The translations under genes and the position numbers were made by a program. 37,525 nucleotides of DNA from Levilactobacillus humaensis (GTDB lineage Bacteria > Bacillota > Bacilli > Lactobacillales > Lactobacillaceae): the NCBI RefSeq assembly GCF_024345185.1, contig NZ_BROB01000023.1, positions 1 to 37,525 on the forward strand. Direction: 5' to 3'. This document shows positions 13,005 to 35,228 of this stretch, piece by piece (positions within the stretch are counted from its first letter, which is position 1; each line of letters starts with the position of its first letter). The notes under the pieces are model-generated. The model saw only the letters and a list, made by a program, of their open reading frames with translations. It searched no databases and had not been told where the DNA came from.

Positions 13005-14021
13005 ATGAAATCTGTTTATGTTACGGGTCCCGGAAAAGTCGCTTGGAAAACCATCGACGACCCTCAAGTGGGCCCAAATGATGTGTTGTTGCAGATGAAA
13101 GCTTGCGGTATCTGTGGGTCGGATGCGATGTACACCCGTATCGGCGGGATTCCACCCCGTCAGGGCGCTACGCCGCTGGGCCACGAACCCGCGGCGGAAG
13201 TTAGCCAAATCGGAGCTAACGTCAAGGACATCGCGGTCGGCGATCACGTGGTTATCGATACCCTGAAATTCACGGATGGCCTGTTAGGTAGTGGTGGTGC
13301 TCAAGGCGGTCTCTCCGAGTTCGTCTTGGTCAAAGACTTCCAGCCGGGCCGCCAACTCCGAGTCATCCCCAAGAACATTCCGTGGCAGGTGGCTGCTTTG
13401 AATGAACCCATGGCCGTCGCGGCCCACGCCGTTAATCAGACGCAGCCTAAACCGGGTGACAAAGTTGTGGTCTTCGGTGCGGGTCCGATCGGCTTGGGGG
13501 CCCTTCTCAGCTACAAACGTAAGGGCGTGGCCAATGTTGTCGTCGTGGACATCATCCAGTCTCGTTTGGATAAGGCCCTAGAAATCGGCGCCGACGCCGT
13601 CATTAATTCTGCCAAGGAAAACGTCGGCGAACGGCTAGTGGCCCTGCAAGGTAACGGTGCCAGTGGTTTCATGCGCGGCGTCCATCCCGCAACGGATATC
13701 TATCTGGATGCCGCCGGGGCCGCCCCAGTCTTCCAAACCGTACTCGACATCGCCAAGCATGGCGCTACGCTGGGCGTGGTGGCCGTCTACACGAAGCCGG
13801 TGGAACTGAATTTTGCCAACGTCCTGACCTCAGAACTCCACGTGGTCTGGTCCATGGGTTACCCGACGGAAATCTTCGAAGTCACCGATGACATCATCGA
13901 TAACCCCGACAAATACGCCAAAATTATCAGTAACACCTTCCCGTTCGACCAGGCCCTCGACGCCTTAAAGATGGCGCGAACCCCTGGTGCCGCGGACAAG
14001 GTAGTCGTCACCTTTGATTAA
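13005..14021 (+). CDS. Zinc-type alcohol dehydrogenase (MDR family)
   Basis: A 338-residue medium-chain dehydrogenase/reductase. The GroES-like part carries CGICGSD (34-40) and GHEPAAEV (59-66), giving Cys37, His60 and Glu61 for the catalytic zinc. The Rossmann fold follows (VVVFGAGPIGLGAL about 153-166, then acidic VVVDI, which favours NAD over NADP). The four-cysteine structural zinc lobe usually found near residues 90-110 is absent; DTLKFTDGLLGSGGAQ stands in its place. It is therefore a structural-zinc-less relative of threonine/sorbitol dehydrogenases. Substrate cannot be told from sequence. AAGGAGG has a 7-nt spacing to the ATG. It is monocistronic between its own promoter and terminator. 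Confidence 0.88.
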   Translation: MKSVYVTGPGKVAWKTIDDPQVGPNDVLLQMKACGICGSDAMYTRIGGIPPRQGATPLGHEPAAEVSQIGANVKDIAVGDHVVIDTLKFTDGLLGSGGAQGGLSEFVLVKDFQPGRQLRVIPKNIPWQVAALNEPMAVAAHAVNQTQPKPGDKVVVFGAGPIGLGALLSYKRKGVANVVVVDIIQSRLDKALEIGADAVINSAKENVGERLVALQGNGASGFMRGVHPATDIYLDAAGAAPVFQTVLDIAKHGATLGVVAVYTKPVELNFANVLTSELHVVWSMGYPTEIFEVTDDIIDNPDKYAKIISNTFPFDQALDALKMARTPGAADKVVVTFD

Positions 14022-14185: not shown

Positions 14186-15364
14186 ATGTTTAAAACTGGA
14201 ATCAAAGTGACCGCCATTGCGGCACTACTACTGGGAATCGGACTATTCAGCTCAACTACCGCTCACGCCCAATCAGGTTACAAAATTACCTCGACTCAGG
14301 ACGTGACGCCGGAACCATACTATGTCGTTAAAAATCCAGAAACACGCTATTCTTGGAATAAAACACATACCAAGAAAATCTTTGTTTTAAAAGCTCTCGA
14401 TGATGTCAGTTGGTATGTGACCCAAAAAGTAACGCTAACCCAAGCCGGCAAAAGTATCCTTTACTACCATATATTGGATTCAGAGGGCTTTGACTGGGGC
14501 TACGTTAGTGCTAAGGATATGCGCAAAGGCTTCAATCCAATTGATGATGAACGTGCGGACTATCAACCCGTACCCAATTCAACTTGGAATGGTAAAGAAA
14601 CGGTTCCGATTAACCCGGTCACCCAGCGTACTTTCACTAAAGTAAGTAAACAAATAGTTAAAAATCAGTATTATCGAACCAAAAAGGCCATAAAAATCAA
14701 AGCTTACTTTAGCCCGTACATTACTGTGGGAGTCGTCACTGTTCCCACTACTCTGCCAGCAGGAACCATAGTTGAAGGGGAAAAATATTCCAAATGGATC
14801 TCTTTCAATATTACTTGCCTGAGTCGAGGAATCCTACAGCCCGGTTATCACCAAGGACTATGGCCCACCAAAGACTATGGCGGCTCATCAGCTTTAGCCA
14901 AAAACTTCAAGCGAGTTAGCCATCCCGATTACTTACCGAAGAGTATTAGCCACGGTGCACTATATCTTGGTAGTTTATCCGCGATTCGACACGCCGCTGC
15001 GTTATCTAAACAGAGTGTCCAAATTACCTCAGATGGCTATGTAGAGGTTCGCCAAAACCAGCCTTGGGCACGCCCTATTGTATACACAGCAAAACCGAAA
15101 GTCTCAGTTAAAATCAAACGAACACGAATCAAGGGGCATACCCGGTACTTATATCTGGCTAAACCTCTGAAAGGATTTAAGACCACTAAAGTTCGTTATC
15201 ACGGTAAGAATCAATACCGATTAGCTTTCGTTAATCAACAACGAACCTATTCCAGATCACAGGCAACTGACGACAACGACTATCCACCAACATATTATGG
15301 CATCATGAGCTTTGGCGGAAAAACCTTCTATACGGAATACAATGAAATTCCATATGATGATTAG
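14186..15364 (+). CDS. Array paralogue 1, secreted protein of unknown function
   Basis: A 392-residue secreted protein. The signal peptide covers 1-28 with cleavage after AHA, and there is no membrane anchor or LPxTG motif. Residues 29-115 carry the 'NPETRYSWNK' version of block A, otherwise found only in paralogue 5. Residues 116-235 are the variable middle (YYRTKKAIKIKAYFSPY and LPAGTIVEGEKYSKW). The conserved SVQITSDGYVEV and IKGHTRYLYLAKPLKGF follow. The last 40 residues (TYSRSQATDDNDYPP) match paralogue 4 instead, so the gene is mosaic. Blocks A and B look like two short beta-barrel modules of SH3-like or SLAP type (V-x-paGt-x-v...kWi), a guess from pattern only. First gene of the array, with the best promoter and ribosome binding site. 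Confidence 0.85.
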   Translation: MFKTGIKVTAIAALLLGIGLFSSTTAHAQSGYKITSTQDVTPEPYYVVKNPETRYSWNKTHTKKIFVLKALDDVSWYVTQKVTLTQAGKSILYYHILDSEGFDWGYVSAKDMRKGFNPIDDERADYQPVPNSTWNGKETVPINPVTQRTFTKVSKQIVKNQYYRTKKAIKIKAYFSPYITVGVVTVPTTLPAGTIVEGEKYSKWISFNITCLSRGILQPGYHQGLWPTKDYGGSSALAKNFKRVSHPDYLPKSISHGALYLGSLSAIRHAAALSKQSVQITSDGYVEVRQNQPWARPIVYTAKPKVSVKIKRTRIKGHTRYLYLAKPLKGFKTTKVRYHGKNQYRLAFVNQQRTYSRSQATDDNDYPPTYYGIMSFGGKTFYTEYNEIPYDD

Positions 15365-15391
15365 GCTTTAAAAATACGGGGAGAATTTCAA

Positions 15392-16570
15392 ATGCAAAAA
15401 AAAGCAATTAAAATGATGGCGCTCATGGCGTTGTTGTTAGGAGTTGGATTGTTCAGTCCAGTCACCGCTCACGCCCAATCGGGTTACAAAATTACATCGA
15501 CTCAGAACGTGACGCCGGAACCATATCATGTAGCCAATAACATAAAGTCACGTTACTCATGGGATAAGACACATACAAAGAAAATGACCATTTTAAACCA
15601 GTTAGGTGACATCAGTCTTTACGTTACCCAAAAGGTCACAATGTTACACAATGGGCAGGAGATCAATTATTTCCACGTTACAGATGAATATGGTGGGAAC
15701 TCCAGTTATGTCACAGCAAATAGTTTGGTAAAGGGCGTTAACCCCGCTGACGATGAGCGTCCAGTCTATCAACCTGAAGTGGCAAACCATTGGAATGGTA
15801 ATGCCACCATCCCAGTTAACCCTGTTTCAAAAAAATCGTTTGCCAAAGTAAGCAAGAAGATCGTTAAAAATCAATATTATCAGGCAAAACGAAGCGTGAA
15901 AGTCAAAATTCCATTTACCACCTATTTGAACGCGGGCGACATCAATAAGACTGTCGTTTTACCCGCAGGAACCGTGATCAATGGGGACAAAAATTCCAAA
16001 TGGCTGACTATTAACGGCGCTTATTTAAGTCAAAAATTCCTTAAAGTTGGCTACCACCAAGGCCTATGGGCAGATGCTGAGCATTGGCCTACATCGGCCT
16101 TGTCCAAAGACTTTAAACCTGTTAAACATCCAAGCTACCTTCCCAAAAGCATTAGTCATGGTGATCTATATCTAGGTAGTCTCTCCGCTATTCAGCATTA
16201 CGATTCGCTCTCTAAACAGAGTATCCAAATTACCTCAGATGGTTATGTAGAAATTCACCAAAACCATCCCTGGGGTTCTATCACAGAATATCAGGGACAA
16301 CCAACAGTTTCCGTTAAAATTAACCGTACTCGCATCAAGGGACATACCCGGTACCTGTACTTGGCTAAGCCTCTGAAGGGCTTCAAAACAACTAAAGTTC
16401 GCTACCACGGTAAACACCAATACCGACTGGCTTTCGTTAACCAACAAAAGACTTATTCCGAATCACGTAAAACTGAAGATCACGACTTACCAGCACAATA
16501 CTATGGCATCATGAGTTTCGGCGGAAAGACCTTCTATACACCTTATGGGATAATTCCATACGATGATTAG
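15392..16570 (+). CDS. Array paralogue 2, secreted protein of unknown function
   Basis: A 392-residue paralogue with signal peptide 1-28. Block A (29-115) is the 'YHVANNIKSRYSWDK' version, which at nucleotide level is almost identical to the same block in paralogues 4 and 6. The middle (150-225, YYQAKRSVKVKIPFTTY then LPAGTVINGDKNSKW) is closest to paralogue 4. The C-terminal core at 305-350 (TRIKGHTRYLYLAKPLKGF) is near-invariant. The ending TYSESRKTEDHDLPAQYYG is again closest to paralogues 1 and 4. GGGGAG precedes the ATG in a 27-nt linker after paralogue 1. No cysteines were noticed in the mature protein. Function unknown. Confidence 0.85.
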   Translation: MQKKAIKMMALMALLLGVGLFSPVTAHAQSGYKITSTQNVTPEPYHVANNIKSRYSWDKTHTKKMTILNQLGDISLYVTQKVTMLHNGQEINYFHVTDEYGGNSSYVTANSLVKGVNPADDERPVYQPEVANHWNGNATIPVNPVSKKSFAKVSKKIVKNQYYQAKRSVKVKIPFTTYLNAGDINKTVVLPAGTVINGDKNSKWLTINGAYLSQKFLKVGYHQGLWADAEHWPTSALSKDFKPVKHPSYLPKSISHGDLYLGSLSAIQHYDSLSKQSIQITSDGYVEIHQNHPWGSITEYQGQPTVSVKINRTRIKGHTRYLYLAKPLKGFKTTKVRYHGKHQYRLAFVNQQKTYSESRKTEDHDLPAQYYGIMSFGGKTFYTPYGIIPYDD

Positions 16571-16598
16571 GCTTTAAAAAACACGGGGAGAATTTCAA

Positions 16599-17780
16599 AT
16601 GCAAAAAAAGAGAATTAAAATGATCGCGCTCATGGCCTTGTTATTAGGAGTTGGATTATTCATCCCAGTCACCGCTCACGCCCAATCAGGCTACAAAATT
16701 ACATCGACTCAGAACGTGACGCCGGAACCATACTACGTCGCTCGCAACATCAGCTCACACTATTCATGGGACAAGACTCACACCAAGCGATTAACCTTTC
16801 TAAATGAGTTTCAAAAAAACTACAGTGTCTATGTGACCCAGAAGGTTACCATGACCTATAAAGGTAAGACGACAGCCTACCTACATATTGCGAACAACTA
16901 TGGCGTGGACTACGGCTACGTCACCGCAAAAAGTATGCGCAAGGGATTCAATCCTACCGATACCGACCGCCAACCTTACCAACCTGCCAAGGGTTCCCAA
17001 TCTCCAGAAATCATGACCGTTAACCGCGTGTCTAAACAAGCCTTCAGCAAGGTTAGTTCACGACTAAATGAGATTACCTATTATCGTACGACGAAAAAAG
17101 TGAAACTTAATGCCGATTTTACGAGCTACATGAATATTGGTTCTACAACCATCTCAACGACAATCCCAGCTGGAACTATCGTCGGTGGCTACCGAACATC
17201 TAACGACCTAGCAATTGACACAGACGCTTTAAGCCAAAGCTTTTTACGTCTAGGTTATCGGCAAGGGCTGTGGGTCGCTGGCGGGGAACTGATCACCAGT
17301 CCCGCTAGAATTAAGGCATTCAAACAAATCAAACGCCCCGCTTATCTTCCCAAATATGATAGCTTTGGTCTCTTGTACGCCGGCGGAATCAACGCTATTC
17401 GAAATCAGAAGGCTCTTTTATCAAAACAGAGTGTTCAAATTACTTCCAACGGTTATGTAGAAATTCGACAGAACAATCCTCACGGACAGGCTACCGAATA
17501 CAACTCGCAACCACTGGCCTCAGTTAAAATCAAGCGAACCAAAATCAAAGGCCACACACGTTATCTGTATTTGACCAAGTCCTTAAAGGGCTACAAAACC
17601 ACCAAGGTTCGCTATCACGGCAAACGACAGTACCGCTTGGCCTTGGTTAACCAGCAAAAGTCTTATGCCATCAAGGACCCCGGCACCGACGAATTCACAA
17701 GAACAACCTATTACGGTGGCTTAACATTCGGTGGTAAGTCGTTCTACACTTCTTATGGAACGGTTTCGAACGCGAAATAA
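16599..17780 (+). CDS. Array paralogue 3, most divergent copy
   Basis: A 393-residue paralogue with signal peptide 1-28 (VTAHA). Block A is a third version (YYVARNISSHYSWDK, then LNEFQKNYSVYVTQKV). The middle (YYRTTKKVKLNADFTSY, IPAGTIVGGYRTSNDLAID) and the bridge (YLPKYDSFGLLYAGGINAI) differ most from the other copies. Even the core has KTKIKGHTRYLYLTKSLKGY. The C-terminus (SYAIKDPGTDEFTRTTYYG) has no close partner in the array. The constant signal peptide and the 30-residue leader after it contrast with this divergence. A longer linker of 57 nt follows it and contains an ATTATTA-G-TAATAAT inverted repeat at 17791-17805. Function unknown. Confidence 0.85.
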   Translation: MQKKRIKMIALMALLLGVGLFIPVTAHAQSGYKITSTQNVTPEPYYVARNISSHYSWDKTHTKRLTFLNEFQKNYSVYVTQKVTMTYKGKTTAYLHIANNYGVDYGYVTAKSMRKGFNPTDTDRQPYQPAKGSQSPEIMTVNRVSKQAFSKVSSRLNEITYYRTTKKVKLNADFTSYMNIGSTTISTTIPAGTIVGGYRTSNDLAIDTDALSQSFLRLGYRQGLWVAGGELITSPARIKAFKQIKRPAYLPKYDSFGLLYAGGINAIRNQKALLSKQSVQITSNGYVEIRQNNPHGQATEYNSQPLASVKIKRTKIKGHTRYLYLTKSLKGYKTTKVRYHGKRQYRLALVNQQKSYAIKDPGTDEFTRTTYYGGLTFGGKSFYTSYGTVSNAK

Positions 17781-17837
17781 ACTTTCAATAATTATTAGTA
17801 ATAATCACATCGTTAAGGTGTTAGGGGATGCTTTTAA

Positions 17838-19016
17838 ATGTTTAACAAAGCAATCAAAATGATCGCGCTCATGACTTTGCTACTAGGAGTAGGATTGTTC
17901 ATCCCAGTTACCGCTCACGCCCAATCGGGTTATAAGATTACATCGACTCAGAACGTGACACCAGAACCCTATCATGTAGCCAATAACATAAAGTCACGTT
18001 ACTCATGGGATAAGACGCATACAAAGAAAATGACCATTTTAAACCAGTTAGGTGACATCAGTCTTTACGTTACCCAAAAAGTCACAATGTCTCACAAGGG
18101 GCAGGAGATCAGCTACTTCCACGTTGCCTATGTATTTGGTTCAGACTTGGGATATGTCACAGCAAATAGTTTGGTAAAGGGGGCTAATCCCGCCGACGAT
18201 GAGCGTCCAGTCTATCAACCAGAACCGACAAAACATCAAACTGGTAACGCCACCCTTCCAATTAACTCCGTTTCGGAAAAGGCCTTTACCAAAGCAAGTA
18301 AAAAGATTGTTAAAAATCAGTATTATCAAACAAAACGTCGCGTGAAAATTAAAATTCCGTTTATACCATACTTGAATCTCGGTCGTATTAATAAGACAGC
18401 TGTTTTACCAGCAGGAACAGTCGTCTATGGTGATAAGTATTCTAAATGGCTGACTATTAATAGTGCCTATTTGAGTCAAAAATTTCTGAAGTCTGGTTAT
18501 CGCGAAGGATTTTGGGCAGATGCTGACACTTGGACGCCATCCGTCTCAGCTAAAAATTTTAAACACGTCAAGCATCCTGGCTACCTTCCCAAGAACATTA
18601 GCAATGGTGATCTTTACTTAGGTGGCCTCTCAGCCCTTCAACACAGCTCACTGTCTAGACAGAGTATCCAAATTACCTCAGACGGCTATGTAGAAATTCA
18701 CAAAAACAATCCGCTGGGGCGGAACACCGAATACCAGGGACAGCCAATCACATCCATTAAGATTAAACATACTCGCATTAAGGGGCATACGCGTTACCTG
18801 TATTTGGCTAAGCGCTTGAAAGGTTTCAAGACAACTAAGGTTCGGTACCACGGTAAATATCAATACCGCTTGGCTTTCATTAACCGGCAAAGAACTTATT
18901 CCAGGTCACGGGCAACTGACGACAATGACTTTCCACCACAATATTATGGCATCATGAGCTTCGGAGGAAAAACCTTCTATACGCCCTATAAGGAAATTCC
19001 ATACAATTATGATTAG
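17838..19016 (+). CDS. Array paralogue 4, secreted protein of unknown function
   Basis: A 392-residue paralogue with signal peptide 1-28. Block A is the 'YHVANNIKSRYSWDK' version, nearly identical in DNA to paralogues 2 and 6 over roughly 110 bases. The middle (YYQTKRRVKIKIPFIPY, LPAGTVVYGDKYSKW) is closest to paralogue 2. The ending TYSRSRATDDNDFPPQYYG is nearly the ending of paralogue 1, which has a different block A. It follows the only long linker of the array, where TTAAGGTG and GGGGATG elements take the place of the usual CGGGGAG. An internal start cannot be excluded there. Function unknown. Confidence 0.85.
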   Translation: MFNKAIKMIALMTLLLGVGLFIPVTAHAQSGYKITSTQNVTPEPYHVANNIKSRYSWDKTHTKKMTILNQLGDISLYVTQKVTMSHKGQEISYFHVAYVFGSDLGYVTANSLVKGANPADDERPVYQPEPTKHQTGNATLPINSVSEKAFTKASKKIVKNQYYQTKRRVKIKIPFIPYLNLGRINKTAVLPAGTVVYGDKYSKWLTINSAYLSQKFLKSGYREGFWADADTWTPSVSAKNFKHVKHPGYLPKNISNGDLYLGGLSALQHSSLSRQSIQITSDGYVEIHKNNPLGRNTEYQGQPITSIKIKHTRIKGHTRYLYLAKRLKGFKTTKVRYHGKYQYRLAFINRQRTYSRSRATDDNDFPPQYYGIMSFGGKTFYTPYKEIPYNYD

Positions 19017-19042
19017 CCTTTAAAGTTGAGAAGGGATTTTAA

Positions 19043-20221
19043 ATGTTAAAAAGAAAAATTAAAAAAATCGCGCTCATGGCGTTGCTGCTGGGAATAGGCC
19101 TATGTATCCCAGTCACTGCCCACGCCCAATCAGGTTATAAGATTACCTCGACTCAAGATGTAACACCGGAACCATACTATGTCGTTAAAAATCCAGAAAC
19201 GCGTTACTCCTGGAATAAAACACATACCAAGAAAATGCTTATTTTAAAAGCTCTCGACGGTATCAGTTGGTATGTAAACCAAAAGGTAACGCTAACCCAA
19301 GCCGGTAAAAGTACCCTTTACTTCCGTATCTTAGATTCATATGGCTATAGCCGGGGCTACGTTAACGCCAATGATATGCGCGAGGGCTTCAACCCAGTAG
19401 ATGATGAACGTCCAGCCTATCAGCCTGTACCCCAGTCTACTTGGACAGGCAAACACACTGATCCAACTAAACAACTAACCAAGAGCGCCTTCACTAAAGT
19501 AAGTAAAAAACTAGTTCAGAATCAGTATTATCAAACTAAGAAATCCGTAAAAATTAAAGTGCCCTTTACAACGTATCTTTCTATGGGTGTCATCAATGTT
19601 CCCACCACGCTACCAGCAGGAAGCATCGTCGAAGGAGAGAAATCTTCAAAATGGCTCCTCATCAATAGCGCCTATTTAAGTCAAAAAGTTCTACAACCTG
19701 GTTATCATCAGGGACTATGGGCCGACAAGGCCAACCGTGGCGTTGCATCAACCTTAGCCAAAAATTTCAAACGTGTTAGTCATCCCGGTTACCTACCTAA
19801 AAGGATCAGCCACGGTGATCTATATCTTGGCGGCGTATCTGCAATTCAACATTCCGCTGCGCTATCTAAACAGAGTGTCCAAATTACCTCAGATGGTTAT
19901 GTAGAGGTTCGCCAAAACCAACCTTCGGCAGACTCTATTGTCTACACAGCAAAACCAAGTGCCTCAGTCAAAATCAAACGAACCCGGATCAAAGGACATA
20001 CGCGCTACTTATATTTGGCCAAGCCTTTGAAGGGATTCAAGACCACCAAAGTTCGCTATTACGGAAAAAAACAATACCGCTTGTCCTTTGTTAATCAGCA
20101 AAAATCCTATGCTGTTATTATCAATGACGATACCCAAGATGTCCCGATTACTTATTATGGTGTCATGCGATTTGGTGGCAAAACTTTCTACACCCCTTAT
20201 GGGGATGTTCCAGATATTTAA
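19043..20221 (+). CDS. Array paralogue 5, secreted protein of unknown function
   Basis: A 392-residue paralogue with a strongly basic N-terminus (MLKRKIKKIALMALL) and signal peptide ending AHA at 28. Block A is the 'NPETRYSWNK' version shared with paralogue 1, with strong DNA similarity. The middle (YYQTKKSVKIKVPFTTY, LPAGSIVEGEKSSKW) joins features of paralogues 1 and 2. The C-terminus (SYAVIINDDTQDVPITYYGVMRFGG) resembles paralogue 6 rather than 1. This swapped combination is among the clearest signs of recombination in the array. GAAGGGA lies before the ATG. Function unknown. Confidence 0.85.
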   Translation: MLKRKIKKIALMALLLGIGLCIPVTAHAQSGYKITSTQDVTPEPYYVVKNPETRYSWNKTHTKKMLILKALDGISWYVNQKVTLTQAGKSTLYFRILDSYGYSRGYVNANDMREGFNPVDDERPAYQPVPQSTWTGKHTDPTKQLTKSAFTKVSKKLVQNQYYQTKKSVKIKVPFTTYLSMGVINVPTTLPAGSIVEGEKSSKWLLINSAYLSQKVLQPGYHQGLWADKANRGVASTLAKNFKRVSHPGYLPKRISHGDLYLGGVSAIQHSAALSKQSVQITSDGYVEVRQNQPSADSIVYTAKPSASVKIKRTRIKGHTRYLYLAKPLKGFKTTKVRYYGKKQYRLSFVNQQKSYAVIINDDTQDVPITYYGVMRFGGKTFYTPYGDVPDI

Positions 20222-20248
20222 GCTTTAAAAATTCGGGGAGGATTTTAT

Positions 20249-21427
20249 ATGTCAAAAAAGGGAATCAAAATGACCGCGCTCATGGCGTTGTTACTAGGAT
20301 TTGGATTACTCATACCAGTCACCGCTCACGCCCAATCGGGTTACAAAATTACATCGACTCAGAACGTGACGCCGGAACCATATCATGTAGCCAATAACAT
20401 AAAGTCACGTTACTCATGGGATAAGACACATACAAAGAAAATGACCATTTTAAACCAGTTAGGTAATCTCAGTCTTTACGTTACCCAGAAAGTCACAATG
20501 GCACACAATGGGCAGAAGAGCACCTACTTTCATGTTGCGGATACCTATGGCTGGGATATGGGCTATGTTCCGACAAATAGTTTGGTAAAGGGGGCTAATC
20601 CCGCCGACGATGAACGTCCAGTCTATCAACCAGAACCTCAGTCGCCATGGACAGGAACGGCTACGGTTCCTGTTAAGTCCGTTACCAAAAAAAACTTCCC
20701 TAAACTGAACAAACAATTAGGCAAGGCTCGCTATTATCAAACGACTAAAAAGCTAAAAATTAAAGTGCCATTCACGCCCTATCTGGGAATGGGCGTTGTT
20801 AAGGTATCTGTATCACTCCCGGCTGGAACTGTGGTTGAAGCCTATCGTTACTCTAATCAGATGTGTATCAACGGCACTACTCTAGATCAAAGAATCCTGA
20901 ATCCAGGTTATTCCCAAGGCTTGTGGGCACAAACTGATGGCATTGCCTACACAGAGGCTAAATTCTTCAAACGCGTTAGTCACCCGGCCTATCTTCCTAA
21001 AAGTATTAGCCATGGCGATCTATATCTAGGGGGGCTCTCTGCCATTCGACATTCTTATAGCACACTAACAAAACAAAGTGTACAAATTACCTCCAATGGC
21101 TACGTTGAAGTTCATCAGAATCAGCCCTGGGGCCGACCCATTGAATACACCGGGAAACCTAAGACTTCGGTTAAAATCAAGCGCACTCGTATCAAGGGAC
21201 ACACCCGATACCTGTACTTGGCGAAACCTCTGACTGGCTTCAAAACAACAACAGTTCGTTATCATGGCAAACATCAGTACCGACTTGCTTTTGTTAACCA
21301 GCAAAAGACTTACACGGTCACAATTCCAAGTGATGATGATAAGCTTCCAATGAGTTGTTATGGCGTTATGCGCTTTGGTGGTAAGACTTTCTTCACCTCT
21401 TATGGTAAGGTTTTCTATGATGATTAA
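20249..21427 (+). CDS. Array paralogue 6, secreted protein of unknown function
   Basis: A 392-residue paralogue with signal peptide 1-28. Block A is the 'YHVANNIKSRYSWDK' version of paralogues 2 and 4. The middle is its own type (YYQTTKKLKIKVPFTPY, LPAGTVVEAYRYSNQMCIN), with a lone cysteine. The C-terminal core reads LAKPLTGFKTTTVRYHG and the ending (TYTVTIPSDDDKLPMSCYGVMRFGG) resembles paralogue 5. GGGGAGG precedes the ATG. No hairpin terminator is seen between its stop codon and the S24 repressor gene 89 nt downstream, so read-through into that gene is possible. Function unknown. Confidence 0.85.
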   Translation: MSKKGIKMTALMALLLGFGLLIPVTAHAQSGYKITSTQNVTPEPYHVANNIKSRYSWDKTHTKKMTILNQLGNLSLYVTQKVTMAHNGQKSTYFHVADTYGWDMGYVPTNSLVKGANPADDERPVYQPEPQSPWTGTATVPVKSVTKKNFPKLNKQLGKARYYQTTKKLKIKVPFTPYLGMGVVKVSVSLPAGTVVEAYRYSNQMCINGTTLDQRILNPGYSQGLWAQTDGIAYTEAKFFKRVSHPAYLPKSISHGDLYLGGLSAIRHSYSTLTKQSVQITSNGYVEVHQNQPWGRPIEYTGKPKTSVKIKRTRIKGHTRYLYLAKPLTGFKTTTVRYHGKHQYRLAFVNQQKTYTVTIPSDDDKLPMSCYGVMRFGGKTFFTSYGKVFYDD

Positions 21428-21516
21428 ATCAATTTATACGTGGAAGAAACACTACTCATAATAACTAAAAATCTTAAACCTAAGAGCTCACACCAAAGGA
21501 TCAGGAGGACATACCA

Positions 21517-22128
21517 ATGAATAACAAAGAAGTCGTGGCACAGAACTTGGATAATCTCATGCACCGTCATAGTGTCACGCGGAGTAAGCTCGCTGACGAC
21601 TTGGGGATTAAGTACTCCACTCTGTCTGATTGGCTGAACGGGCGGACCTACCCGCGCGTTGGGGCTATCACCCAACTAGCAACCTACTTCAACGTTTCCC
21701 CTTCCGCCATTGTAGATAGCACGGAACCCAGTGAGGTCTTACAGGGCGTCGTTTCCATCCCTATTATCGGAACGATCGCGGGTGGTTCACCCATCTTAGC
21801 TGACGAACACATCGAAGGCTACGTCAAGGAACTCAAGGCTGGCCTCCCCGTTGGCGAACTCTTCTATCTACGCGTCAAGGGCCACTCAATGGAACCGACC
21901 ATTAAGGATGGCTCGCTGGTCCTCATCAACCGTCAACCAGAGGTCTCAGACGGGGATATTGCGGCCGTACTTATTAACAATGAGGCCACACTGAAACGTG
22001 TCACCATTCAGGACGGCAAATATATCCTGATTCCCGACAACAAGGACTACGCCCCGATTCTACTCGACCGGAGCAATGAAAACCGTATTCTCGGTAAGGC
22101 CATTCGGGTCACCATTAATTTAGAATAA
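21517..22128 (+). CDS. XRE/S24 LexA-fold repressor (HdiR/CI-like)
   Basis: A 203-residue repressor with an N-terminal XRE helix-turn-helix (about 8-62, TRSKLADDLGIKYSTLSDWL) and a C-terminal S24 self-cleavage domain. The cleavage pair Ala88-Gly89 (GTIAGG), nucleophile Ser124 (KGHSMEPT) and Lys160 (EATLKRV) are all present, with LexA-like spacing, so RecA-stimulated self-cleavage is plausible. This architecture fits the lactococcal HdiR group and phage CI repressors. No phage genes are near, and the dedicated LexA has a different winged-helix N-terminus. AGGAGG lies 8 nt before the ATG. It directly follows the six-gene array, so it may control it, but no shared operator was found. Confidence 0.9.
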   Translation: MNNKEVVAQNLDNLMHRHSVTRSKLADDLGIKYSTLSDWLNGRTYPRVGAITQLATYFNVSPSAIVDSTEPSEVLQGVVSIPIIGTIAGGSPILADEHIEGYVKELKAGLPVGELFYLRVKGHSMEPTIKDGSLVLINRQPEVSDGDIAAVLINNEATLKRVTIQDGKYILIPDNKDYAPILLDRSNENRILGKAIRVTINLE

Positions 22129-22222: not shown

Positions 22223-24187
22223 CTAGCCGAGTTTGGCCAGTTCGGCCGGCGTATAGGCATAGTCCACGTGCGCCATGCCCGGAACCTCATCCCAAGGGAC
22301 GGGATAACCGGCACCGTGCGCACAGAACACGGAACCCGGGGTATTCGGTAAATCTCCCACCGGATCGTATGCCTGCGCCGCCACGACCTCATCGGCATTG
22401 TGACATGGGCGATAGCCATCGATCAGACACTCCAATTGGCCCTTGCCATGCGTATAGGCATTGACCTCCTGCGCATAGTCCTGCATGGCGGCCACCGGAG
22501 CGGTTCCCGTCAGTACGGTCATCTCGCCCGCATCCGTCGGTGTGTCAAAATCGCCACTCATCCGTTGAATATCCGTCATGGCACGACCCACTTGATCCTG
22601 ACCCACTTCCAATCGGAAACGATACCAGGGTTCCAGTAGTTGTAGACCGTCATTTTCACGGAGCATCATCAGGCCCTGACGTACGGCGCGCCACGTGGCC
22701 TCACGGAAGTCACCGCCCACCGAATGAACAATACTAGCGCGGCCAGTGACGAGGGTAATTTTAGCATCCGTAAGGGGTGACCCTGTCAGAACGCCCAGTT
22801 GTTCCTTGGCGCGAAGATTCGACAACACTTGATGTTGCCAGTTTTTCCCGAGAATCTCTAGCGAACAGTCCGCCGCAAAGGTCAGACCGCTACCCCGGGG
22901 CGCCGGCTCAATCAACAGGTGAACCTCCGCGTAATGCCGGAGGGGTTCGAAGTGACCGACCCCCTCGACGGCCTTCGTGACGGTCTCCTTGTACAGAATA
23001 CTTCCGGCATCGAAACCGACGTCCAATTGGAAACGGTCGTGCAGAATCTGTTGGAGAATCTCCAGTTGAACGGTCCCCATGATCTGCACGCGAATCTCCT
23101 GCAGGTGGCTGGACCACGTGACGTGGAGTTGCGGATCCTCATCCTCCAATTGCCGGAAGATCGTGAGACAGTCATGTAGGTCGTGGCCCTGCGGATCCAC
23201 CGCATAGGTCAGTACCGGTTGAATCTCTGGGGTACGCTCATCCGCCACGTTACCCAGTCCCTGACCGGGATACGTGTCCGTTAGATTGGGGATCGCGCAA
23301 ACTTCACCAGCTGCGACACTCTGCCGGATTTCAAATTTAGTCCCGTTATAAACCCGGAGCTGATTGACCTTCTGCTCACCGAGTAACACGGTCTTGGTGG
23401 CCAGCTGTCCCCCGGTAATCCGTAACCAGGTCAGCCGCACCCCCTTGTCATCGTGCGAAATTTTGAAAACTTTGGCACCGAAGTCTGTCGTCGTCACAGG
23501 ATCACTGGTCCAATGAGCCAAGCCCGCTAGAAAAGCGGAGACACCCTCGAGCTTTAAGGCCGATCCGAAGTAACAAGGAAATACCTTGCGCTGGCGAATC
23601 AACTGCCGAACGGTCTGATCGGCAACCTCGCCCGTATTCAAGAATTGTTCCAAGACAGCGTCGTCTTGCATCGCCACATCCTCATAGGCGTCCTCCGGAA
23701 GCGTCGCCGTCTCGCCCTGGTCAAAGGCCAAGCAACCCGGTGAGAAGGTCGTTTGCAGCTGGTCGAGGACACGATCGCGGTCGGCCGTCACGGCATCCAT
23801 TTTATTTACAAAGATAAACGTGGGAATCTGGTAATGATCCAGTAAGCGCCACAGGGTTCGCGTGTACCCCTGAATGCCATCGGTGGCCGAGACCACCAGA
23901 ATGGCGTAATCCAGCACACTGAGCACCTGTTCAGTCTGGGAGGCAAAGTCCACGTGTCCGGGGGTATCGAGGAGCGTTAGGGTCAGATCCTGCATGGTCA
24001 GGCTAGCCTGATGGGAAAAGATGGTAATCCCCCGTTGTTTTTCGAGGGTGTCTGAGTCCAGAAAGGCGTCGCCGTTATCGACGCGGCCTAACTCTCGCAC
24101 GGCGCCTGATTGGTATAACAAGGCCTCCGAGAGCGTCGTCTTCCCGGCGTCGACGTGAGCGACGATGCCCGCTGTGATTTTTGGCAT
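22223..24187 (-). CDS. TetM-like translational GTPase
   Basis: A 654-residue GTPase of the EF-G superfamily, in the branch of the TetM/TetO ribosomal protection proteins. G1 is AHVDAGKT (10-17), G3 DTPGH, G4 NKMD and G5 GSALK; EF-G-like domains II-V follow. Length fits Tet proteins (about 640) rather than EF-G (about 700). The C-terminal part (GQLECLIDGYRPCHNADEV then NTPGSVFCAHGAGYPVPW) differs from classical TetM/TetO ends and is typical of chromosomal relatives, so tetracycline resistance should not be assumed. AGAAAGGAG lies 9 nt before the ATG. A promoter with a 14-bp palindrome at its start site lies upstream. It acts on the ribosome in the cytoplasm. Confidence 0.85.
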   Translation of the reverse strand: MPKITAGIVAHVDAGKTTLSEALLYQSGAVRELGRVDNGDAFLDSDTLEKQRGITIFSHQASLTMQDLTLTLLDTPGHVDFASQTEQVLSVLDYAILVVSATDGIQGYTRTLWRLLDHYQIPTFIFVNKMDAVTADRDRVLDQLQTTFSPGCLAFDQGETATLPEDAYEDVAMQDDAVLEQFLNTGEVADQTVRQLIRQRKVFPCYFGSALKLEGVSAFLAGLAHWTSDPVTTTDFGAKVFKISHDDKGVRLTWLRITGGQLATKTVLLGEQKVNQLRVYNGTKFEIRQSVAAGEVCAIPNLTDTYPGQGLGNVADERTPEIQPVLTYAVDPQGHDLHDCLTIFRQLEDEDPQLHVTWSSHLQEIRVQIMGTVQLEILQQILHDRFQLDVGFDAGSILYKETVTKAVEGVGHFEPLRHYAEVHLLIEPAPRGSGLTFAADCSLEILGKNWQHQVLSNLRAKEQLGVLTGSPLTDAKITLVTGRASIVHSVGGDFREATWRAVRQGLMMLRENDGLQLLEPWYRFRLEVGQDQVGRAMTDIQRMSGDFDTPTDAGEMTVLTGTAPVAAMQDYAQEVNAYTHGKGQLECLIDGYRPCHNADEVVAAQAYDPVGDLPNTPGSVFCAHGAGYPVPWDEVPGMAHVDYAYTPAELAKLG

Positions 24188-32660: not shown

Positions 32661-35228
32661 TTAGTCTTGACGCTTAGCACGTTTGAATCCGAACAGAGAT
32701 CCAATCACCGCCAGCAGTGCCAGGCCCCACCAAGATGAGGTTTGCTGATCACTGGTTTGTGGCAAGGTTGTCGCCTTGGCAGGTGCTAATTTAGCTGCCG
32801 CTTGACCCTTGGTTGCCAGTTGCGTTACCTTGGCTCCAGAGCCCTTAACAGCCGTCTTCTTGGCTGGCTTGTTCGTGGTTACCTTGGCAGCCTGACCACC
32901 ATTCTTGGCCGGTGTCGTTGGCTTAGAAGGCTTGTTAGGCGTCACAACGGCGGGCTTACCACCATTTTCAACAGCCTGGTAGGTGTAAACCACATTCTGG
33001 CTAGCTGACGTGTAAACACCGCTGGCATTAGCTGGCGTAGTGACTAGCTTGTAGCCGTCGAGACTCTTAGGAACTGTCGTGTAGGCCTGACCAACTGTCC
33101 CAGTTAACGTGTCATCGGGGGCCAGTTGCTTGCCGGCTGCCGTTTGGTAGTGAACCGTTACCGTACCGTCCGTAACCGGTTGGCCGGGGTCGACTGGGGT
33201 AACAGGTGGTGTAACGGGCTTGCCATTCGCCTTGTAGTAAACATAAATATCATTGTTAACATCTTGGATGGTCCCGCTGAGTGTCTGATCCGTCAGCGTG
33301 CCATTCCCTTCAACCCGGTCGAAGTCATAACCGTCAACCTTAGGCAGGTCAACACTCCAGGCCGTACCTTTCTTTCCGGATTCCTTGACGATCTTGTCAC
33401 CGATCGCGTTGCCGTCTTCATCAACCAGATAAATCTTCTGTAAGGGGCTGAAGAGTAACGTGATATTTTGGGCATCGCTATCATAGGTCACCGTCGAACT
33501 CTCGGTATTACTGCTGAGATCTTGACTAAGTTTACGCGGCTTTTCATAGGTAAATCCACGGTCCTCGAGATCCGCGATAGCCTTTTGAACTGACGCATCA
33601 TTTAAAACATCCAAGGTTGAACCCGTTTTGCCACTCAAAATGGTAAATGGTGCAATCTTAACCCCACCATCGAGTTCAAAGGCAACTGTCACGGCGCCAA
33701 CTCTAGCATCTAAGGTGTAAGGCACGACGATGCTTCCACTAAATTGAAGACCATTCGGTGCCTCGGGCTTCGTGAGATCGTTGTGTCGGTTGAGGTCCCA
33801 AATCAATTTCACTTGGCCAGTCCCATCAGCATTAGTCGTTAGTTGTTTCCAAGTCGACCAGTTTCCGGCACCAATCATGCCTTCAGTTCCAGTTGATTGC
33901 GGATCGCCCTGCATGAATTCATTAAAATCGTACAGATTGTCGTAGGCAAAGGACCAGGTCGACAATTCAGACGTCGCAGGATTTAAGGCAACTTGATCTG
34001 TCGTCCAAGTCTGGTTATCTGCGGAAATTGTATAGGTAATCTCATCCATCCATGGTTGCCAATTGAGGCCCAAAAGCGGTGTGATATCAAAGATGTGATT
34101 GCCACCAAAGCTCAAGAATCCTGGAGCCGCCGTGATGTTACGTAACGGTGAGAGATCGGAAATGTTGTTGTACTGAAAGGACATGCTGGATAAATTAACT
34201 AATTTAGCTAATGGCTTCAGACTCGTAATTTTATATAGACTGTCTGCTTGCTGCGAAAAACTAATGGATGTCAATGCGGTCAGATTGCTCATAAATGACA
34301 GGTCTGTGATGTTGTTATACGACAAGTTAAGGGAGGTCAGTCCAGTCAAGCTAGCTAGTGCAGCCGTGTCAGCATCACCGATTTGATTCCAGGATAGGTT
34401 TAAACTCGTTAACTGAGTGAGGCCTTGGAGCGCGGAAATATCTGATAACTGTCCACGTTGGCTGGTATTTCCCCACGTCTTGCTTGCTTTGCTATCCGGC
34501 AAGATTGCTAACTTTGTCAGACTTTTGGCATATTGAAGCCCTTCTAAAGATTTAACGTTGATGACCGCATTGTAGAAGGATTGATCAGTTTGTTGCTTAG
34601 TTTCGGCAGCATTCGCCCACAAATCAATTTTCGTTAACTCTCCCAAAAGATCCGTGTTGATCTGCGAAACATCTGTGATCTCCGGATGTGTTTGTTGAAT
34701 AGCATATAAGACCACCTGTTGAAGATTCTTATCTGGAATAAGATCATCCACTGTCGGCGTGGCTACCTTTGGCGTTGGCATAGATCTCAACATACTGGAT
34801 CGCTTTGGTGTTGTTAGTGTGTTTTCAGGCTGTTGCTGAGCCGTGTTTGACGTCTTCTTAGTATTGTCTGGCGTCTCAACAACTTTCTTAACAGGGCCTT
34901 CGGGGTCGTTGGTTACATTATCTTTAGGAGTCGTTTCATCTTTTGTTGTGTCGGGATCCGATGTAGTTTCTGGGGTCTCGGAAACTGAGGGAACAACGGG
35001 GTCCTGTTCAGGCTTAGTATCTGTTGCAGGCTTCTGAAGCGAGACTTGTGGCTGTTGTTCTTGACCAGTCACAGTCTTTCCCGTTGTATCATTAATTCCA
35101 CTAGCGGTATCGGCATGTGCGACTTCAGTTGTCGCTAATCCCATGGTTCCCAGTGTTAACGCAACTGCGCTTGTGAGCAACCAGCGATTTTGATGTTGTT
35201 TTCTTGTTAACTTTTGATCCATTTTCAT
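32661..35228 (-). CDS. LPQTS-anchored leucine-rich-repeat/MucBP surface protein
   Basis: An 855-residue cell-wall protein. The signal peptide covers about 1-39 (cleavage after AHA), then a Thr/Pro/Asp/Glu-rich linker to about 165. Leucine-rich repeats of about 22 residues follow (about 215-400, with LTSLNLSWNQIGD and LTSLNLSYNNITDLS), a beta-rich region (400-595), and two MucBP-like modules (about 600-670 and 690-750, with DGYDFDRVEGNG-like and VTVHYQTAAGKQL sequences). A basic Lys/Thr/Ala linker ends in the sortase motif LPQTS (822-826), a membrane helix and KRAKRQD. LPQT-type motifs are typical of lactobacilli. It probably binds mucus or host surfaces. AGGGGA precedes the ATG. Confidence 0.9.
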   Translation of the reverse strand: MKMDQKLTRKQHQNRWLLTSAVALTLGTMGLATTEVAHADTASGINDTTGKTVTGQEQQPQVSLQKPATDTKPEQDPVVPSVSETPETTSDPDTTKDETTPKDNVTNDPEGPVKKVVETPDNTKKTSNTAQQQPENTLTTPKRSSMLRSMPTPKVATPTVDDLIPDKNLQQVVLYAIQQTHPEITDVSQINTDLLGELTKIDLWANAAETKQQTDQSFYNAVINVKSLEGLQYAKSLTKLAILPDSKASKTWGNTSQRGQLSDISALQGLTQLTSLNLSWNQIGDADTAALASLTGLTSLNLSYNNITDLSFMSNLTALTSISFSQQADSLYKITSLKPLAKLVNLSSMSFQYNNISDLSPLRNITAAPGFLSFGGNHIFDITPLLGLNWQPWMDEITYTISADNQTWTTDQVALNPATSELSTWSFAYDNLYDFNEFMQGDPQSTGTEGMIGAGNWSTWKQLTTNADGTGQVKLIWDLNRHNDLTKPEAPNGLQFSGSIVVPYTLDARVGAVTVAFELDGGVKIAPFTILSGKTGSTLDVLNDASVQKAIADLEDRGFTYEKPRKLSQDLSSNTESSTVTYDSDAQNITLLFSPLQKIYLVDEDGNAIGDKIVKESGKKGTAWSVDLPKVDGYDFDRVEGNGTLTDQTLSGTIQDVNNDIYVYYKANGKPVTPPVTPVDPGQPVTDGTVTVHYQTAAGKQLAPDDTLTGTVGQAYTTVPKSLDGYKLVTTPANASGVYTSASQNVVYTYQAVENGGKPAVVTPNKPSKPTTPAKNGGQAAKVTTNKPAKKTAVKGSGAKVTQLATKGQAAAKLAPAKATTLPQTSDQQTSSWWGLALLAVIGSLFGFKRAKRQD

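Follow-up and report, generated by a model that had tools for sequence, protein, structure and literature searches.

The DNA described here, termed the window, is a stretch of 37,525 nucleotides from Levilactobacillus humaensis, which constitutes contig C23 of a 2.37-Mb draft genome. It harbours an array of six related genes (copies 1 to 6, or c1 to c6), which encode secreted-looking proteins of 392 or 393 amino acids (aa) and lie head to tail on the + strand. Members of the same protein superfamily are convergent neighbours of genes for helveticin-like bacteriocins in the window's own genus (g1) and in genus g14, and recombination has almost certainly shaped the array. We propose that the array is a set of orphan genes for secreted proteins that confer immunity to helveticins and have been shuffled by recombination, and put the probability of this reading at about 0.5; the linkage is observed, while immunity is what we infer from it. 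The wider proposal, according to which an undescribed, secreted and wall-associated superfamily forms a helveticin-J-type immunity system in several genera of the Lactobacillaceae, and its partners outlast the toxins as recombining orphan arrays such as the one in the window, is more tentative and falls somewhat short of even odds.

Linkage to helveticin-like genes

The nearest relatives found for the window genome all belong to Levilactobacillus, the first among them being L. paucivorans DSM 22467. The DNA flanking the array is only 85-92% identical between these two genomes, which therefore probably represent different species. In L. paucivorans and in a further relative, G015, a gene of 350-353 aa converges with the last array gene across gaps of 118 and 94 bp, respectively. 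A relative of this gene on a plasmid of L. hilgardii is annotated as a helveticin J family class III bacteriocin (28% identity, E = 3e-10). The window lacks the tail-to-tail helveticin gene that L. paucivorans and G015 carry at their orthologous loci, and the link is therefore invisible from the window's sequence. A tblastn search of the window with 76 helveticin-like proteins yielded no match at E ≤ 1e-3 and no remnant, and the array is not helveticin J itself.

A search with a profile built from eight helveticin-like proteins gave matches in 54 of 397 genomes of the family; within the genus, 5 of 35 genomes contain a helveticin match. All listed helveticin places outside genus g37 were fetched, together with 17 of the 38 listed in g37, and 20 stretches from helveticin-carrying genomes (one of only 643 bases) served as controls, with open reading frames (ORFs) of at least 250 aa considered. 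Linkage was scored if a convergent gene carrying a module of the superfamily lay no more than 300 bp downstream of the helveticin-like gene. Helveticin ORFs on the same strand and less than 200 nt apart were taken as one gene by their coordinates, a rule that merged two separate genes in L157. The count leaves out the gene at a contig end in the window's own genome (G000:C40), two weak genes in G006, the proteins of which were included in profile A7, and 21 of the 38 listed g37 places.

By this measure, linkage was found for six of six readable strong helveticin genes in the own genus, 27 of 34 in g14, 4 of 14 in g20 and the single gene on the L. hilgardii plasmid, the partner of which is a protein with the N-terminal module (N module; see below). 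The total outside g37 is 38/61, compared with 1/122 control ORFs (Fisher 4e-22) and with 6/206 other ORFs in the same helveticin stretches (Fisher 7e-24); both tests ignore relatedness. The spacing is narrow as well, with a convergent partner at -10 to 211 bp in 33 of the 40 cases from g1 and g14. L132 counted as a miss at 313 bp, though helveticin-like sequence there extends to 80 bp from the partner, and L135 stops at a contig end. One of the two weaker G006 genes, which stand outside the counts, converges with an N-module gene at 68 bp, and the other is flanked on either side by module genes that do not converge with it. Pairs of toxin and partner also occur in series, each toxin with its own partner (two pairs in L119, L127, L143 and L145, three in L130). 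In the window's own genome a helveticin gene lies at the very start of contig C40, and contig C36 ends 91 bp past a gene with the C-terminal module (C module), which is 78% identical to the G015 partner; these two contig ends, although separate in the assembly, fit the same pair as in three relatives.

At 21482, where the window lacks the helveticin stretch, the junction retains CTAAG; in L. paucivorans these bases belong to the 5' arm of a hairpin at the corresponding position. This weakly hints at a deletion in the window lineage; the toxin would thus have been lost by the window rather than gained by its relatives. Helveticin fragments persist elsewhere, 43-44 bp away from and tail to tail with an extra partner, namely in L080 (5345-5540; two partners) and L082 (9754-9930; three partners). 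The simplest reading is that the pairs were once tandem, and that one toxin decayed and left its partner. Ratios of partners to toxins range from 2:1 (L009) through 3:1 (L082) and 4:1 (L133, L139) to 6:0 in the window.

Several further observations concern these loci. As the 3.5-kb stretch is missing from the window, the S24/helix-turn-helix (HTH) regulator gene starts 89 nt past copy 6 (21428-21516); the hairpin located after the second array gene in L. paucivorans is gone as well, and read-through into the regulator gene is possible. In L. paucivorans itself (L081:6776-7825, contig C39), a helveticin-like gene is broken by one in-frame stop codon, and the convergent partner ORF is open. Some helveticin-like genes of g20 (L146, L148, L150) have no partner with an N or C module and are followed by a co-directional small secreted-looking protein of 206-226 aa. 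The small proteins in L148 and L150 start alike, which suggests a second partner family, and partners other than N- or C-module proteins may exist. Likewise, helveticin-like genes in L158, L163, L166 and L169 (g37) and L155 (g26) are followed by co-directional or convergent genes for proteins of 246-360 aa, which look secreted by eye and match no profile. In L. brevis, a secreted-looking 375-aa protein (L010:8613-9740, - strand) is encoded divergently to an array homologue, and homologues 42-48% identical to it, annotated as hypothetical, are present on nine L. brevis plasmids; its candidature as a helveticin was not supported.

A two-module secreted superfamily

Profile searches divide the array proteins into an N module (approximately model positions 1-130) and a C module (approximately 150-387), and all six window copies belong to the core of the module profiles. 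The superfamily is defined here by an N and/or C module behind a signal peptide, as judged by eye. The signal peptides of the array proteins, likewise recognised by eye, end in AHAQ, and the mature proteins are basic with an isoelectric point (pI) of 9.6-10.0, in agreement with the earlier suggestion that they are secreted. Elsewhere, the N module is joined to other C-terminal parts, including Peptidase_S11 D-alanyl-D-alanine carboxypeptidase domains, and is found in neighbours of helveticin genes. Secreted proteins of approximately 260-335 aa, some of them encoded next to helveticin genes, have the C module by itself, and larger proteins of 588-661 aa carry an N module, a second, weaker C-like region and then a C module. 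Such large secreted relatives are present in L028, L029, L030, L032 and L072 (588-661 aa where intact), and the gene in L030 contains an in-frame TAG. The carboxypeptidases with an N module before Peptidase_S11 (L020:1501-2667, L059, L060, L075) have no Pfam match over the N part.

Matches to the family were found in 35 of 35 genomes of the genus (E ≤ 1e-3), and in 72 of 397 genomes from 8 of 40 genera of the family (E ≤ 1e-10). The original prediction did not recognise the family, and indeed no Pfam or NCBIfam model matched the array proteins above its cut-off; membership in the EsaG and TipC families is not claimed. Copy 6 had no match in PADLOC and PHROGs, a search of PDB sequences with one copy and profiles A2, A3 and A4 gave no credible match to a solved structure, and no relatives were found among plasmids (copy 6) or viral contigs (profile A1). 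An assignment of the N module as a GW- or SH3-type wall-binding domain was not supported, with no Pfam GW match in the copies and an hhalign probability of 4% against GW-domain proteins. The superfamily with its two modules thus appears to match no described family.

Recombination within and between arrays

The six ORFs, called mechanically, bear out the positions and codon numbers originally given for the tandem genes, and at the protein level c2-c6 are 54-73% identical to copy 1. The mosaic of alternative blocks is likewise as described: block A reads NPETRYSWNK in copies 1 and 5, NIKSRYSWDK in copies 2, 4 and 6, and is of a third type in copy 3. The block exchange by gene conversion postulated on these grounds is supported by silent-site differences, a permutation test and approximately unbiased (AU) tree tests. 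Windowed pairwise identity along the aligned genes is not uniform, and the closest partner of a copy changes with position. Over alignment nt 67-216, a stretch of 150 identical bases, 64 polymorphic sites in a row have the same state in copies 2 and 6; a GENECONV-type permutation over all sites gives this run a global p of 3e-4, and a silent-only run at nt 73-235 yields 2e-4. Since silent differences between the two copies are low within this tract (3% in nt 60-126, 11% in nt 126-252) but amount to 44% and 56% outside (nt 0-60 and nt 252-375), the tract is internal and its flanks are diverged.

Among c2, c4 and c6, silent differences in nt 126-252 are 11-15%, whereas the orthologues c6 and pB, the second array gene of L. 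paucivorans, differ at 40% of silent sites there versus 3-13% from nt 375 on. The simplest reading is homogenisation of this segment in the window lineage; a change on the pB side is also possible, since pB is itself chimaeric nearby and equally distant from c2, c4 and c6 (105-107 of 123 bases). A second exchange concerns copy 1, which is sister to c5 elsewhere in the gene and groups with c4 in its 3' block. The data of three other blocks reject the 3'-end tree ((1,4),2), and the 3'-end data reject the best trees of those blocks (AU p ≤ 0.002); one consistent tree for all blocks is thereby contradicted.

Two details of the predicted mosaic have to be revised. The C-terminal endings had been paired as 1 with 4 and 5 with 6; the former are close in DNA (silent difference 0.29), and the latter differ at 0.66 of silent sites, which rules out a recent exchange. 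The IKGHTRYLYL core (nt 960-1086) is nearly constant in protein, as stated (proportion of non-synonymous differences, pN, 0.02-0.14), yet it is not a conversion block, because its silent sites are near saturation (proportion of silent differences, pS, 0.50-0.98). The core is conserved by purifying selection, not by conversion.

Copy number and order were compared among species. In all three, an alcohol dehydrogenase gene upstream and the S24 regulator gene downstream frame the locus, which has a single copy in G015, a pair in L. paucivorans and the six-gene array in the window. The first L. paucivorans gene, pA, and the single G015 gene join the head of c1 (92% in nt 1-60) to the body of c3, and pB joins the head of c4 (85% in nt 1-60, at most 75% for the rest) to the body of c6. 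Two crossovers in the signal-peptide region, each of which removes two units, would thus turn the six-copy array into the two-copy one. A second locus behaves similarly. Of the two tandem copies in L. paucivorans, the window genome has retained the body of the first, joined to the flank downstream of the second, and in G015 the upstream flank and head correspond to the first copy and the body to the second. Within the window copy, nt 600-720 poorly match either L. paucivorans copy. At both loci, the junctions by which the species differ are those expected from unequal crossing-over.

In the tree of gene bodies, c1, c2, c4 and c5 form a clade (support 99) beside c6 and pB, and c3, pA and the G015 gene stand apart. 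As the array bodies are thus older than the species split, copy loss in the relatives would be a simpler story than gain in the window. Recent duplication from two copies to six was rejected as the main story, both because the bodies of c1, c2, c4 and c5 long predate the divergence from L. paucivorans and because of the chimaeric junctions within the two-copy array; it is possible that the window lineage acquired whole units from elsewhere. Outside the array, the window's genome contains one more full-length paralogue, the seventh (G000:C2:52365-53558). In L. paucivorans, pA (L009:8738-9943) encodes 401 aa rather than the 393 of c3 because of an in-frame tandem duplication of eight residues (SYMNVGST twice).

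Apart from the c3-c4 spacer, the copies are separated by 26-28 nt, and the spacers contain G-rich, ribosome-site-like stretches. A scan of the array found promoter-like and terminator-like sites no more frequently than expected by chance. On account of these short spacers and chance-level sites, the six copies are predicted to form one transcription unit, which we consider likely. The features of the locus are compiled in Table 1.

Table 1. Positions of the array genes, their parts and their neighbours in the window
Feature	Position	Strand	Remarks
Zinc-type alcohol dehydrogenase	13005-14021	+	Upstream neighbour of the locus, kept in three species
c1 (copy 1), 392 aa	14186-15364	+	Array start; 5' head common to L. 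paucivorans pA and G015 gene; 3' end of copy-4 type
c1 3' block, c2/c4 type	15239-15361 (c4 equivalent 18888-19010)	+	
c2 (copy 2), 392 aa	15392-16570	+	Body sister to c4; 150-base tract in common with c6 (15458-15607)
c3 (copy 3), 393 aa	16599-17780	+	Body orthologous to L. paucivorans pA and G015 gene
c3-c4 spacer, 57 nt	17781-17837	+	One base different from pA-pB spacer of L. paucivorans
c4 (copy 4), 392 aa	17838-19016	+	5' head nearest L. paucivorans pB
c5 (copy 5), 392 aa	19043-20221	+	Sister of c1 apart from 3' end
c6 (copy 6), 392 aa	20249-21427	+	Body orthologous to L. paucivorans pB
Conversion tract, 150 bases	c6 20315-20464 = c2 15458-15607	+	Identical, both flanks diverged
N module of c6, mature N-terminal ~100 aa	20330-20638	+	Equivalent in other copies
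C module of c6, ~245 aa	20684-21424	+	Equivalent in other copies
Junction	21482-21484		L. paucivorans has ~3.5 kb here including helveticin-J-like gene, absent from window; G015 has same gene and collinear stretch
HTH/peptidase S24 regulator	21517-22128	+	Downstream neighbour of the locus, kept in three species

Two further genes of the window are worth recording. A 654-aa elongation-factor-G-like GTPase (22223-24187, - strand), which matches tetracycline ribosomal-protection proteins in size, occupies the same position in L. paucivorans and G015, and an 855-aa protein (32661-35228, - strand) contains leucine-rich repeats, MucBP domains and an LPXTG anchor match.

Possible functions and known systems

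If the partners are immunity proteins, they might act by shielding the cell or as decoys. Because the N module elsewhere stands in front of Peptidase_S11 carboxypeptidase domains, it is proposed to locate the protein in the wall; the bacteriocin would be countered by the C module or a different C-terminal part. Loss of the neighbouring helveticin would have left the window with six non-identical orphan partners, which, read as one unit, could provide breadth against several related bacteriocins. The array almost certainly grows, shrinks and forms chimaeras by homologous recombination in conserved stretches, either in the signal-peptide head or past the stop codon, and internal gene conversion adds to crossing-over. 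Decayed toxins would leave their partners behind, and the orphan arrays might recombine into new specificities. We prefer immunity because the partner lies on the opposite strand beside the toxin, outnumbers and outlives toxins in places, is secreted, carries a wall-type module and follows dynamics resembling those of EsaG and TipC arrays. The immunity genes of pore-forming colicins also lie on the opposite strand beside the toxin gene.

A number of results weigh against this reading. In g37 only 1 of the 17 helveticins examined (38 listed) has a convergent module gene, and there is no linkage in g38 (0/3), g26 (0/1), g33 (0/1) and g19 (0/1, two adjacent genes merged by rule). Four of the 20 control stretches also contain a module gene. 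The counted loci are not independent of one another phylogenetically; moreover, the L. hilgardii plasmid (L085) is 99-100% identical to the g14 contig L121, and the total drops to 37/60 once this duplicate is removed. Co-divergence of toxin and partner is weak (28 N-module pairs, Mantel r = 0.22, p = 0.008, uncorrected for species relationships). The C-terminal parts of the neighbours vary between N module plus another domain, C module alone, and N plus C, which is odd for one immunity mechanism. Finally, since module genes are far commoner than helveticins in the genus (35/35 versus 5/35 genomes), many copies are orphans or have another job.

The last point suits a different account, in which the proteins have a general role in the cell wall, adhesion or the surface coat, and helveticin genes are nearby since both gather in variable islands of secreted proteins. 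Thirty of the 35 genus genomes have the family in the absence of a helveticin match, the N module stands before D,D-carboxypeptidase domains, and the proteins are basic, as discussed for lactobacillar surface proteins in the accessible text of PMC12691797. Clustering in islands, however, predicts neither convergence within so narrow a range nor toxin remnants at equal spacing, and other ORFs in the same stretches seldom converge with module genes; we therefore regard this account as unlikely, if serious. The S-layer protein Lb1145 of L. brevis, treated in the same accessible text, is a lead only, with no sequence compared.

The linkage data also fit an accessory component of the bacteriocin, be it a carrier, a wall-targeting factor or a second lytic protein, as a wall-type module could steer a lysin to its target. 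Yet the genes lie on opposite strands, and partners multiply and survive in places with no toxin or just a remnant of one (6:0 in the window, 3:1 in L082), which is unexpected for an aid to killing and renders this explanation improbable.

The original prediction favoured an antigenic or phase-variable surface repertoire under diversifying pressure, for which constant length, a variable middle and mosaic blocks would speak. The ratio of non-synonymous to synonymous substitution rates (dN/dS), computed over whole genes and with dS partly saturated, is 0.11-0.27 in 19 of 19 pairs of paralogues and orthologues, with no value above 1; these whole-gene values do not bear out diversifying surface antigens, which should exceed 1 in the variable regions. 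Moreover, the six genes are co-oriented with spacers of 26-57 nt and chance-level promoter and terminator scans, no separate search for switching elements having been made, and we consider this repertoire very improbable. Just as improbable is neutral tandem duplication with drift, incidental recombination and multiplicity devoid of function: one, two and six copies in three close species indicate that change is tolerated, but the six ORFs are intact and dN/dS is low despite near-saturated silent sites.

Helveticin-like genes are frequent in lactobacilli, with 43 homologues in 23 strains according to the accessible part of PMC5471241, and the part of PMC7162838 available to us reports a helveticin-like gene cluster of L. 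gasseri with no other bacteriocin-associated gene. According to the accessible text of PMC8538875, the mechanism by which helveticin producers are immune "has not been described"; the same sentence credits these producers with an immunity-protein gene, which counts against our proposal. Within the literature searched, including the accessible parts of these three papers, there was no description of the pairing of the secreted superfamily with helveticins, a weak negative given that most subscription literature lay outside the search, and no paper on the array protein family was among the literature matches listed. Since three genera share a compact candidate partner at the same position, the question of immunity can be tested directly in food bacteria. 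If the proposal is true, toxin remnants beside extra partners and chimaeric arrays would show how orphan immunity repertoires of Gram-positive bacteria arise.

Several known systems resemble parts of this picture. The linked gene is related to class III bacteriocins (bacteriolysins) of the helveticin J type, and the array proteins are neighbours of such genes, not bacteriocins themselves. With the Peptidase_S11 D-alanyl-D-alanine carboxypeptidases of the same bacteria they have the N module in common, but they lack a peptidase domain. The lpl lipoprotein clusters or "gene accordions" of Staphylococcus aureus (PMC7360770 and PMC9484751, accessible text) are likewise tandem arrays, the copy number of which shifts by recombination; they comprise other protein families and change among strains, whereas only species were compared here. 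Consecutive recombining genes for extracellular proteins are also described in Lactobacillaceae for Apilactobacillus kunkeei (PMC12863079, accessible text), yet those giant surface proteins measure 3,000-8,000 aa, as opposed to 392-393 aa here, and are likened by description only. The array dynamics are paralleled by the EsaG and TipC immunity arrays of type VII secretion toxins, which, according to the accessible text of PMC9484751, consist of non-identical tandem paralogues with conserved blocks between variable regions, where recombination in the blocks adds or deletes copies and leaves mosaics; the same pattern is found in the window. Here, in contrast, the linkage is to a helveticin-like toxin, and the partner lies convergent to it and carries a signal peptide and a wall-type module, so that a likeness of array dynamics and no kinship in sequence is claimed. 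Recombining tandem immunity arrays are thus known, and the apparently new element is a secreted superfamily paired with helveticins.

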